DNA of 26,516 nt from a virus. Below, in pieces: positions 665-14,687 of this stretch; the stretch's first letter is position 1, and every line of letters begins with the position of its first letter. The stretch spans positions 1 to 26,516 of the IMG/VR virus record IMGVR_UViG_3300025767_000108; one strand, given 5' to 3'. The notes beneath the pieces were generated by a model. The model worked only from the letters and a program-made list of their open reading frames with translations. It did not search any database and was not told where the DNA came from. Made by a program: the position numbers and the translations under genes.

Positions 665-1153
665 TTATTTGGCAATTTCGTATTTTCTGGTCTCAAGTTC
701 TTTTAACATGTTTTGGTTGTACTTGTCGCCAAACACTTCTTCTTGCTTTTCCTCAGGATATTCAGTGCCTGTGATTGGCTCGTATTCTGACTCTTTTTCG
801 TCCTGGGCTGCTTCTCTGGCTATTTCTTCTGGATCATTTTTGTTAATAACTACAATATGACTTTCTGGAAGACCGCAAACATCTGCTAGCATTGCAGACA
901 ACTGATGTGGTGTTGTAGGATAGTTTGTAGCAATATCAATAATATGCACTTCAGTGTTTTGTACATTTTGTGCAAAACCTGCAGGTTGTTCCTGGATTGG
1001 AGTTCTTTTTGGCTTGCTCATGCTTTCTAATCCGTGCTTGTCAAGATTTGATTCAATACGATTAATACAATCGTCTGTCAGTTCGCCGGCAATTTTAAAA
1101 CGAAATTCGTAAGGTTGAGTTGATTCCATTAAGTATTCTACAAAACTTTTCAT
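665..1153 (-). CDS. Putative head-associated protein with capsid-targeting N-terminus
   Basis: The frame is open from an ATG at 1195, but the better start is the ATG at 1153 (162 aa). That ATG has an AAGGA site 10 nt upstream, and a late-promoter element (1179-1186) lies inside the longer version. From this start the N-terminus is MKSFVEYLMES. This closely follows the T4 internal-protein targeting sequence MKTYQEFIAEA, with a predicted prohead-protease (gp21-type) site after Leu-Met-Glu at residue 10. The rest has a compact region with the sequence SKPKRTPIQE around residues 45-54, then an acidic, E/D-rich tail with a Tyr-Asn-Gln segment near the end. It resembles a conserved uncharacterised protein of marine T4-like phages. 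The head-core or internal-protein role is inference. Confidence 0.8.
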   Translation of the reverse strand: MKSFVEYLMESTQPYEFRFKIAGELTDDCINRIESNLDKHGLESMSKPKRTPIQEQPAGFAQNVQNTEVHIIDIATNYPTTPHQLSAMLADVCGLPESHIVVINKNDPEEIAREAAQDEKESEYEPITGTEYPEEKQEEVFGDKYNQNMLKELETRKYEIAK

Positions 1154-1178
1154 TGTGTTCTTATCCTTGTTATAGCAG

Positions 1179-1186
1179 TATTTATC
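1179..1186 (-). promoter_or_regulatory. T4-type late promoter element (GATAAATA)
   Basis: GATAAATA on the minus strand begins 33 nt before the preferred ATG at 1153, with an AAGGA ribosome site in between. It overlaps the stop codon of the gp16-like gene (1185-1187). It supports the downstream start of the capsid-targeted protein. Confidence 0.6.
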
Positions 1187-1649
1187 ATTTAACATCGTCT
1201 TTGTTTCTTAGCATTTCAAGTAGTGCGTTCCTGTCTAATTCTTGTGCAAATCCAGGTTCATCGTCGTTGTCTAGTTTTGCTTGTTTCTCCTGCATTTCTA
1301 AACGCCTACGTTTAAGATCTAGATCTAATGCTTTAAGTTTTTTATCAATCTTGCTTGTCTTAGCAGTAATAGCATGTCCTAGCAATTTACTAGCTGCATC
1401 AAAAATTGGAGCACTAAACCTTGGCTCTACATTCATTCCTAAGTCCATTAAGTCATCATAATGCACTAATGCTTTACTAGCCAGTGTATCCATTTCTTCG
1501 TCACTTGTGCTAAGGTCGGTGATACTGCTAGGATTGTCCGGTAATTGGCGTTCAATTGTTTCTAATTCTCTACTAGCATCTTGATACTCATCGCTGCTCA
1601 AAGCAGGATTTTCTTCCAAATCAAAAAATTCTTCTAGTTTTTTGGTCAT
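1185..1649 (-). CDS. gp16: Small terminase subunit, gp16-like
   Basis: The product (154 aa) would act with the large terminase (gp17 type) in recognising and feeding concatemeric DNA into proheads. Its layout fits T4 gp16 (164 aa): an acidic N-terminal third, a helical core, and a K/R/E-rich coiled-coil-like stretch ending in a short acidic C-terminus. The core around residues 62-110 includes LMDLGMNVEPRF and AITAKTSKIDKKLKALDLDL, typical of marine T4-like gp16 proteins. The start overlaps the gp4 stop (ATGA arrangement) with an AAGGTAAG ribosome site upstream. Oddly, no large terminase follows; gp17 normally lies directly downstream. Identification rests on the helical core pattern only. Confidence 0.68.
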   Translation of the reverse strand: MTKKLEEFFDLEENPALSSDEYQDASRELETIERQLPDNPSSITDLSTSDEEMDTLASKALVHYDDLMDLGMNVEPRFSAPIFDAASKLLGHAITAKTSKIDKKLKALDLDLKRRRLEMQEKQAKLDNDDEPGFAQELDRNALLEMLRNKDDVK

Positions 1650-2086
1650 CTTTTTTTCTTACCTTGTTGATATATGTCTGCTTCTGTAACAACTCTAAAT
1701 ACAATTCCTTGTTGTTTACACCATGCTGTTGCCGCTTCCCATTTTGCATAATTTACTGCCACGGCTGCCTTGTCTCTTTGGCTTTTGGCATTTTCCATTG
1801 TAGTCTGGCTTTTGGGCTTTACTTCAATTAATTCTGCTCTGCGCTTTCCGCGCTTGTCCTGATACACCATAAAAAAATCCGGAACATATATTGTATTCTT
1901 TCCTGTTAACGGATTCTTATATGGAATAGTTATACTTTCACTAGCCCATTGAATTACATTAGGATGGTTATCACAGAATTGCATAAACGTAAATTCCCAG
2001 CCGCTTCTATATGTAGGTTCTTTTTTTCCTGCATATTTTTCTGGGTGCCTTAAAGTAAACTTACCTTGTGCATATTTTCTAGCCAT
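1646..2086 (-). CDS. gp4: Head completion protein gp4 (TnsA-like nuclease fold)
   Basis: The 146-aa product matches the gp4 (gp50/65) head-completion family, which acts at the filled head before tail joining. It carries a PD-(D/E)xK nuclease pattern: Glu31 in the SGWEF segment, Pro69-Asp70 in VPDFF, and Glu88-Val-Lys90 in LIEVKPK. The length is about the family norm (T4 gp4 is 150 aa). It begins one base after the stop of the 123-aa gene and overlaps the gp16-like gene by 4 nt, so the three are probably co-translated. The C-terminus is basic (QQGKKKR). All expected catalytic positions are present. Confidence 0.9.
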   Translation of the reverse strand: MARKYAQGKFTLRHPEKYAGKKEPTYRSGWEFTFMQFCDNHPNVIQWASESITIPYKNPLTGKNTIYVPDFFMVYQDKRGKRRAELIEVKPKSQTTMENAKSQRDKAAVAVNYAKWEAATAWCKQQGIVFRVVTEADIYQQGKKKR

Positions 2087-8014: not shown

Positions 8015-8359
8015 ATGAACAAAAAAATATGTGAAATTTGCAACGAAAACCATGTAACCGTTAATTACAAGCGTAATGACAAAGTTTATTACCGTAAAAA
8101 GTGCTATAATTGTATTAAAAAAGAAAAAGAAAGTAACACAAAAGTCAAACAACTTTTGAAAAAAAGTGGATATGTAAAAAAATTAAAATGCGATCGGTGT
8201 GGATTTCAATGCAAAACATCAAAACAAACTGAAATATATTATGTTGACGGGAACTCGCATAATGTAAACTTAAACAACTTAAGAACACACTGCTTGAATT
8301 GTAATGCAGAAGTTACATCTAATCCTGCAAAATATAAAAATATAATAGCAGACTTTTAG
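8015..8359 (+). CDS. HNH-like zinc-ribbon protein with degenerate active site
   Basis: The 114-aa product has four CxxC pairs: Cys6/9, Cys30/33, Cys59/62 and Cys93/96, consistent with two zinc sites. The second half follows the HNH plan CxxCGF...VDGN...NNLxTxCxNC found in small phage HNH proteins. The catalytic His normally before VDG is replaced (Tyr75-Tyr76), and the residue after the last CxxC is Asn97, not His. Asn87/88 remains. It may therefore bind DNA or zinc without cutting, or use another residue. It is alone on the plus strand between sheath and neck-type genes, lacks a clear ribosome site, and its 3' end overlaps the convergent basic-protein gene by 4 nt. It looks like a mobile or moron-type insertion; the function is unproven. 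Confidence 0.7.
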   Translation: MNKKICEICNENHVTVNYKRNDKVYYRKKCYNCIKKEKESNTKVKQLLKKSGYVKKLKCDRCGFQCKTSKQTEIYYVDGNSHNVNLNNLRTHCLNCNAEVTSNPAKYKNIIADF

Positions 8360-8691
8360 AGTTTTGGTTTTGCTGGTTTACGTGCTTTGTTTAAAATTTT
8401 AGTTAGCAATGAACTAGGATCAATCCTCTTTGTTCTTTTAGCTCTACGTGCTTGTTTAATTTTTGTTTTAGCACGAGTTTTTTTCATTTGTATACGCTTT
8501 GAAATATCAATTGGTGCAAAGCACTGTGAAATTTTACTTACACGTCTGCCTGCTCTAGGTCCAGATCCGCATACAAACTTTTGTGTTGTTTTAACACCGC
8601 CACCTTTAGTGTTTTTACTTCGAGCAAAGACCATTCCTGCTTCATTAATTTGTTCTTCAACTGATTTATTTGTAAACTCGTTTAATCTCAT
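8356..8691 (-). CDS. Small, very basic protein with capsid-targeting-like N-terminus
   Basis: The 111-aa protein starts MRLNEFTNKSVEEQINEAG. The first residues (M-R-x-x-E-F) and the Ile15-Asn-Glu17/Ala18 junction fit the targeting peptide and (L/I)xE cleavage rule of T4 prohead protease gp21. The predicted mature part holds a CGSGPRAGRRVSKISQC segment and a lysine/arginine-rich C-terminal half (KKTRAKTKIKQARRAKRTKR), suited to nucleic-acid binding. Similar small basic proteins occur in marine T4-like phages without assigned function. The ATG follows the neck-type gene by 4 nt, with an AGG site 8 nt upstream, so it is expressed with it. Inferred role: DNA-associated internal head or structural protein. 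Confidence 0.8.
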   Translation of the reverse strand: MRLNEFTNKSVEEQINEAGMVFARSKNTKGGGVKTTQKFVCGSGPRAGRRVSKISQCFAPIDISKRIQMKKTRAKTKIKQARRAKRTKRIDPSSLLTKILNKARKPAKPKL

Positions 8692-10682: not shown

Positions 10683-10856
10683 TTATCGATACTTATTAAC
10701 AATTAATTGCCAAACAGTATCATTGTCAGAAATTTTAATTTCTTTGTCATCTACATCAAACATTTCGCAAAACAATTCGCCAATATTCAACGGTCCTTGA
10801 TAAATGTCAGCTTCAGATATAAAATCTAACCATTCGTTTTGTTTTATTTTTTCCAT
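10683..10856 (-). CDS. 57-aa acidic small protein
   Basis: This short ORF (ATG at 10856-10854, TAA at 10685-10683) encodes MEKIKQNEWLDFISEADIYQ and 37 further, mostly acidic and hydrophobic residues ending QLIVNKYR. An AGG-containing ribosome site lies 10 nt upstream, and a sigma70-type promoter begins 33 nt upstream. It is the first gene of the leftward unit. Residues 12-16 (FISEA) resemble the cut site of T4 targeting peptides (IxE before Ala), but the rest of the N-terminus does not fit well. No domain is recognised. Good signals at both ends make it a likely real gene. Confidence 0.7.
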   Translation of the reverse strand: MEKIKQNEWLDFISEADIYQGPLNIGELFCEMFDVDDKEIKISDNDTVWQLIVNKYR

Positions 10857-13517: not shown

Positions 13518-14015
13518 ATGACTAAAACAAATATTAAAAAATATGTAAAAGCAAGCGGCGTTCTTTTTCTTTCAATAAAAACAAAAAGATTTTTATTTTT
13601 AATGAGAAGCGACGATAGTTATACTAACACCTGGGCAACAGTAGGTGGTAGATCGGAACACAACGAAAGCATTGTACAAAGTTTAAGTAGAGAAATTCAA
13701 GAGGAAATTGGATTTCTTCCGATTGTAAGAAAAACAATACCAATTGATTTATATGTTAGTCCTGACAGAATGTTTGAATTTCATACATTTATTTGTCTAG
13801 TAGACAACGAATTTATTCCAATCCTAAACGAAGAACACAGTGGATATGCTTGGAGCAATATTAACAATTATCCTAAACCTTTGCATCCTGCACTGTTTAG
13901 TAGTTTCAAAAATCAAGAACTGATAACAAAAATAGAAAATGTAATTAAATTACTAGAGGTCAGCAGTAGTAATGAACTCTCTGAGGTTAATAGGTTTGTA
14001 GTTAGGCAAAGTTAA
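13518..14015 (+). CDS. Nudix hydrolase
   Basis: A full Nudix box is visible at residues 44-66: Gly44, Glu50, Arg58-Glu59, Glu62-Glu63, Gly65 (GX5EX7REUXEEXGU, all positions matched). Such enzymes cleave a nucleoside diphosphate linked to another group, using divalent metal bound by the box glutamates. The preceding strands (SGVLFLSIKTKRFLFLMRS, then TWATVGG) complete the expected fold. Context resembles GDP-mannose or nucleotide-sugar Nudix proteins (SREIQEEIGF, FEFHTFICLVDN), but the substrate cannot be read from sequence. It starts 7 nt after gp15 without a clear ribosome site, so it is expressed with the late neck operon. Its last 20 codons overlap the convergent DUF115-like gene. Confidence 0.93.
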   Translation: MTKTNIKKYVKASGVLFLSIKTKRFLFLMRSDDSYTNTWATVGGRSEHNESIVQSLSREIQEEIGFLPIVRKTIPIDLYVSPDRMFEFHTFICLVDNEFIPILNEEHSGYAWSNINNYPKPLHPALFSSFKNQELITKIENVIKLLEVSSSNELSEVNRFVVRQS

Positions 14016-14687
14016 TAGTTTTCTATAGTTATCTTCTACTATAGGCGTTACTCTATAAAATGTAACTTCTGGATACGATTCAATGACATTGAATAAATTT
14101 TTAAGCCACTTACCATCAAAACATTCCTCGCCTGTTTTTGGATAATGTTCTGTATTAAGATAGATACTATTAATTCCATGTGGATCCGGCTGACCGTCAT
14201 ACCCAAACAAAAATACTTTTTTAGCGCCATGAAATGCTGCAAGATATGCTGCACTAGATCCTGCATCCATTCTATTATTTCCTGGCATTAGATTCATATC
14301 GGGATACTTTCTAGCAATTTCTTGGTATGCATAAGTTATATCATGCAAGTCCTTGGGCATTTGTGCAGTTAAAAGGTGGTGTGTAGTAATCAAAAAGTCA
14401 GGTTGCCATTCTCTCCAAATGCCATTGCAGCCATAGATTACATTGTAGTATCTAAGAATTTTAAGACTGTTGGTGTTTTTAATCTTATTAAGACTGTAAT
14501 CTGCTCTACTATTGCCATTTCCTAAACAAATTGCATTTCCGCTTGGATTTGTAAAAGTAATCTTTGGTCTAATAAATCTTCTATCTGCTTTACCGCCTCC
14601 TAACGAAACGTTAATCCATTCACCTTGGTAGTCCTTGCTATACAAAGCCTGGATAGTACTTTTACGATCAAACGATATACTTTTCAT
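13953..14687 (-). CDS. DUF115/MptE-like Rossmann-fold protein, possible glycan-related enzyme
   Basis: The 244-aa product has an ICLGNGNSR loop (residues 53-61), YGCNGIWREWQPDFLITT (85-102), and AGSSAAYLAAFHGAKKVFLF followed by GYDG (142-165). A NSIYLNTEHY segment follows, then a final FYRV strand. This pattern recalls the DUF115/Maf-type and related sialyltransferase-like proteins, which bind nucleotide-linked sugars, and occurs in uncharacterised marine phage proteins. No signal peptide or membrane segment is seen. The start overlaps the end of the short-fibre gene (TAAAATG), so it is expressed with the fibres. A role in modifying a sugar on a virion or host surface is inference. The last 63 nt overlap the Nudix gene on the other strand. 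Confidence 0.78.
   Translation of the reverse strand: MKSISFDRKSTIQALYSKDYQGEWINVSLGGGKADRRFIRPKITFTNPSGNAICLGNGNSRADYSLNKIKNTNSLKILRYYNVIYGCNGIWREWQPDFLITTHHLLTAQMPKDLHDITYAYQEIARKYPDMNLMPGNNRMDAGSSAAYLAAFHGAKKVFLFGYDGQPDPHGINSIYLNTEHYPKTGEECFDGKWLKNLFNVIESYPEVTFYRVTPIVEDNYRKLLTLPNYKPINLREFITTADL

Follow-up and report, generated by a model that had tools for sequence, protein, structure and literature searches.

A conserved virion protein of RaK2/PA5oct-type jumbo phages begins with a candidate T4-like capsid-targeting sequence

The window analysed here is a stretch of 26,516 nucleotides, positions 1 to 26,516 of IMG/VR virus record IMGVR_UViG_3300025767_000108. Near its left end, on the minus strand, lies gene X (665..1153, ATG at 1153 and stop at 665), which encodes a conserved virion protein of 162 amino acids. 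It is preceded on the same strand by a gene for a conserved small protein (1185..1649), recognised by its profile match to PHROG 16202 and part of a conserved gene order, and by a gene for a gp4-type, TnsA-like head completion protein (1646..2086; PF08722, E=3e-25; PHROG 218, E=2e-43), used here as the synteny marker. The mechanical open reading frame of X is a longer version of 176 amino acids that begins at 1195. The original prediction placed the start at ATG 1153, giving a product that begins MKSFVEYLMES, with a GATAAATA late element and an AAGGA ribosome-binding site ahead of it and within the longer frame. Both signals are present on the minus strand, at 1179-1186 and 1164-1168, respectively, and AGGA or GGA occupies the place equivalent to the latter in most homologues. 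ATG 1153 is the correct start of X, since it comes after the end of the preceding gene, whose stop is at 1185, AAGGA precedes it, and all 148 distinct homologues (63 plus 85 further) align to it.

Two annotated homologues appear to have wrong starts. That of Atu_ph07 (FDI40_gp113; L186:9001-9087) looks 29 codons too short, which hides MKTLQDYLTES and its own GATAAATA, and RaK2 ORF047 (L188:2929-3000) looks 24 codons too long. Database searches of virion spectra could miss the true N-terminus, and X homologues in known phages gain a corrected start from this analysis.

X matches PHROG 14802, "virion structural protein" (category head and packaging), with E=1.4e-6 over residues 2-144; isolate homologues in this family are PA5oct EST35_0202, CBB_210, RaK2 ORF047 and 121Q gp557. 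Among isolated jumbo phages, members of the RaK2/PA5oct group have homologues (PA5oct, MIJ3, CBB, GAP32, RaK2, 121Q, Munch, Atu_ph07, Phosso and Vibrio phage 2.275.O), and so do many contigs of uncultured viruses. Two tail tube genes, the gp4-type head completion gene, usually a small unknown gene, and X follow one another in a common order, with terminase slightly beyond; the window shares this order with PA5oct, CBB, RaK2, GAP32 and 121Q, and additional genes intervene in Phosso and Atu_ph07. At 78 of 79 loci the distance from gp4 downstream to X does not exceed 4 kb. Published mass spectrometry places X homologues in the virion: EST35_0202 was detected in virions of PA5oct, and CBB_210 in mature virions with 13 unique peptides and 60.5% coverage (PMC5259590). 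The original prediction described X as not known as a head protein, which is half right, since virion membership, along with the head and packaging category of PHROG 14802, was already on record and the place within the particle had no assignment. The body of X has no match to the T4 IPI, IPII and IPIII families (PHROG 5341, 7857 and 4363) and is not a member of them; its sequence has no match in the PDB and no usable one in Pfam. Our literature search found no paper pairing capsid targeting with RaK2, PA5oct or Atu_ph07 and no report of a mature N-terminus for the X family, and a PA5oct virion peptide list was not found among open papers.

X was further predicted to have a late promoter of its own, and the homologues bear this out. 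TAAATA stands at -45 to -12 of X in 63/63 homologues and before X in 85/85 held-out ones (148/148), whereas the controls, upstream of the neighbouring gp4-like gene and within X, gave 0/61 each; as the homologues are mutually related, these counts are non-independent events, and the same-locus controls answer for kinship. The element is TATAAATA-like and lies a fixed short distance before the X start, as expected of a T4-type late promoter, and all seven large relatives (7/7) encode a late sigma factor of gp55 type. T4-like late promoters were proposed earlier for the RaK2-like phage CBB (PMC5259590). Across the whole window ATAAATA is not enriched (8 seen, 9.4 expected), which would suit an AT-rich DNA background as the source of TAAATA and a chance origin for the N-terminal likeness described below; this explanation is already contradicted by the counts in homologues versus controls and by the profile statistics of X, and we regard it as very improbable. 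Seven of the eight copies read in the sense direction and precede a gene start by 81 nt at most; 1.3 would be expected there, and none of 2,000 simulations reached seven.

Copies of ATAAATA stand just before the tail-tube gene, a neck-like gene and several fibre genes (4612, 9457, 16151 and 22660 on the minus strand, 10931 on the plus strand), and these elements likely outline the late transcription units of the fragment. The gene downstream of X (1-438, minus; MDMKKMLAALDGVES...MKSLLES) has its own GATAAATA 81 nt upstream. Its N-terminus is strongly conserved in L002, and it has no family match.

The first ten codons of X (1124..1153, minus) encode MKSFVEYLME, the proposed capsid-targeting sequence (CTS), and the predicted cut, after LxE, would fall between E10 (1124-1126) and S11 (1121-1123). 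Most homologues begin M-K-x-F/Y-x-x-Y-L/I-x-E. Among 63 homologues, positions 1, 2, 4, 7, 8 and 10 are conserved and 3, 5, 6 and 9 variable, with weighted conservation of 0.86 for K2, 1.00 for F/Y/L/I4, 0.94 for Y/F7, 0.83 for L/I8 and 0.84 for E10; of 85 held-out homologues, 73 have E10 and 75 fit the motif if position 8 may be any hydrophobic residue. In T4 IPIII the first ten residues are enough for packaging, and suppressor mutagenesis assigned targeting mainly to residues 4 and 7 and processing to residues 8 and 10 (PMC9026906). The X decamer has residues of both kinds, and these are partial or lost in some lineages. N-terminal conservation by itself was discarded as evidence, because neighbouring genes show it too.

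A decamer profile was built from the X family alone, with T4 left out of training. Over 1,280 T4 start codons, the profile places IPIII and IPII (MKTYQEFIAE/A) jointly at rank 1 with 14.8 bits, in effect a single test because the two share one CTS, and IPI at rank 5. None of 400,000 random decamers reached the T4 CTS score (14.7). Over 9,874 starts of four jumbo genomes the best non-X start scored 9.6, and since X was in the training set it is this empty background that is informative. PHROG 2667, "internal head protein", was matched by 3 of 54 X members at E<=1e-3 (best 4e-5); the two matches inspected span residues 1-45, and T4 IPII and IPIII reach PHROG 2667 solely via residues 1-19. The conservation pattern, the profile rank and the random decamers together uphold the predicted resemblance of the X N-terminus to the T4 capsid-targeting peptide. 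A strict motif search of four whole jumbo genomes returned X and no further CTS protein, and so gave no set of internal proteins targeted along with X.

Rank 3 of the 1,280 T4 starts, just under IPIII and IPII, is a 54-amino-acid T4 protein that begins MKTFKEFIKEDMV (PHROG 1823, L170:18952-19116). By its first residues, it is possibly a further capsid-targeted protein of T4.

A T4-type S77 prohead protease is encoded by 8 of 14 relatives searched, including 7/7 records above 150 kb; no protease was recognised in the 26.5-kb window, which is a fragment. In five relatives the major capsid precursor has LSE/A, LTE/A, LSE/N, LTE/S or LVE/N at a single conserved position, where propeptide removal is expected. 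The relatives' protease therefore probably reads LxE like T4 gp21, whose specificity is given in PMC9026906.

Alignment of residues 1-11 had been offered by the original prediction as its check, with homologues that lack LxE named as counting against it; the pattern is kept in most homologues, and LxE is absent in a minority of lineages. Homologues in PA5oct, Phosso, RaK2, XbC2 and Munch have no LxE, and E10 is missing in PA5oct (YDAS), Phosso (LSSV), L022, L069, L326 and other uncultured relatives. RaK2-like phages have the N-terminus MNKLQKILT(E/D/S) or similar, which scores near zero on the X profile; CBB_210 is nevertheless in the virion. Positions 4 and 7 stay hydrophobic in nearly all homologues without E10 or with a RaK2-like N-terminus, which fits targeting minus cleavage and also fits a plain structural helix. 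One refinement of the targeting reading, for which we judge the chances even, is that X is targeted in all lineages and cut in some, and would be packaged uncut in PA5oct, Phosso, RaK2 and Munch. It would account for residues 4 and 7 being retained where E10 is lost and for the presence of PA5oct X in the virion despite its having no LxE; in T4, Asp at position 10 stops processing with targeting retained (PMC9026906), and giant phages differ in which head proteins undergo processing (PMC5694885).

AlphaFold2 models of X, made from 108 sequences, have a helix (residues 4-10) followed by a loop (11-14); the alpha/beta body that starts at residue 15 is ferredoxin-like, and another helix covers 143-155. 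Confidence is modest to moderate (mean pLDDT 64-68). Codons 11-14 (1112..1123, minus) would thus be a linker between the N-terminal helix and the first beta strand (15-22), again at moderate confidence. Foldseek matched ferredoxin-like folds weakly (ribosomal protein S6, TM about 0.35); its remaining matches are uncharacterised phage proteins, including that of Atu_ph07. That AlphaFold2 predicts the N-terminal helix with moderate confidence favours a reading in which the helix stays in place as a permanent docking or folding element, for instance for neck, portal or terminase partners, and resembles the T4 CTS through convergence on a short amphipathic helix that ends in E. In line with such an element, the hydrophobic residues at 4, 7 and 8 are mostly kept even without E10, and X neighbours tail-tube, head-completion and terminase genes, away from the portal, core, protease and capsid cluster, which counts against head targeting. 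Yet register, length, anchoring at the start and E10 all match the T4 CTS, an equal score was reached by 0/400,000 random decamers and by no other start of the four jumbo genomes, and the relatives encode the matching protease; we hold a permanent helix to be unlikely.

Other [LI]xE sites occur at conserved places in X, IQE at 53-55 in 92/108 sequences and LKE at 150-152 in 83/108; depletion of LxE in the X body, considered as support for cleavage, was rejected, the body being enriched instead. Together with the LxE at 8-10, these sites could mark X as a scaffold-like core protein cut at several places, like T4 gp67 and gp68, and not retained as an internal protein. We think this improbable: CBB_210 is detected in mature virions with the coverage given above, the additional sites sit in a predicted strand and a predicted helix, and the surroundings of the protease gene in relatives already supply a scaffold-like gene and further small core-like ones.

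The observation underlying the original prediction is confirmed, and its interpretation, packaging into the prohead, mostly holds. We consider it likely that X is a structural protein made late and that a T4-type N-terminal CTS of ten residues, cleaved in most lineages, takes it into the prohead. Late in infection, the gp55-type sigma factor would read GATAAATA and X would be made from ATG 1153. Residues 1-10 would form a short amphipathic helix, with F4 and Y7 presumably binding the prohead core. The S77 protease would then, in most lineages, cut after L/I-x-E at residue 10, and mature X would begin at S11 and stay in the head, probably in its interior. For the phage of the window itself, capsid targeting of X is probable and cleavage between E10 and S11 somewhat less so. 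Entry into the particle is predicted because the N-terminus matches the T4 address tag. X is one syntenic gene that the entire clade retains, and so is probably a general internal head component and not a host-specific accessory.

Two further starts in the window were considered as CTS candidates, 8356-8691 (MRLNEFTNKSVEEQINEA) and 10683-10856 (...EWLDFISEA), and dropped, as neither scores on the X profile. The first of these genes (minus) encodes a very basic protein of 111 amino acids that starts MRLNEFTNKSVEEQINEAGMVF and has an INE/A site. Among named phages, a relative turned up solely in Salicola phage SCTP-2; the protein could be another processed internal head protein. Between it and the sheath gene, on the opposite strand, a small cysteine-rich HNH-like protein (8015-8359, plus), seen by eye, looks like a homing endonuclease or a remnant of one. 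Also by eye, a NUDIX-like protein (plus) lies beside a convergent gene (minus) between fibre genes at 13518-14687.

Jumbo phages have dozens of virion proteins without a known place or role, and X is one of the more widely shared. For this protein the head interior is now a location that can be tested, a way in is proposed and the mature N-terminus is predicted; the results also suggest that the T4 head-targeting code extends well beyond T4. A broader proposal, to which we give slightly less than an even chance, is that one conserved protein carries a T4-compatible head address of ten residues, recognised by a prohead-core surface common to T4 and the RaK2/PA5oct/uncultured jumbo clade; some lineages would keep targeting and lose cleavage, and the address could bring foreign cargo into jumbo heads, as in T4. 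If true, the X decamer might serve as a tag with which to load proteins into very large phage heads.

X resembles T4 IPIII and IPII in M1-K2, aromatic residues at 4 and 7, L/I8, a variable position 9, E10 and a small residue at 11, as well as in the T4-type late element and, in its relatives, an S77 protease of probable LxE specificity; it differs in a body of unrelated sequence and in the loss of E10 in some lineages. T4 internal proteins are variable accessories, whereas X is a single conserved syntenic gene whose product is predicted to be cleaved. Its promoter is like the T4-type late promoter (TATAAATA, gp55) in placing NATAAATA or CTAAATA a constant distance ahead of the start and in the gp55-type sigma factor of relatives, and unlike it in a first base that may be G, C, A or T across the X family. 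With PHROG 14802 X shares homology, gene order and virion homologues in PA5oct and CBB; existing records of that family are silent on location, targeting and processing. DarB of phage P1 likewise has an N-terminal signal that sends a protein into the phage head, but of about 30 residues and another sequence. The head proteins of SPN3US carry long N-terminal propeptides that also guide proteins into the head, of other sequence and up to about 127 residues, whereas the proposed propeptide of X is ten residues long and T4-like.
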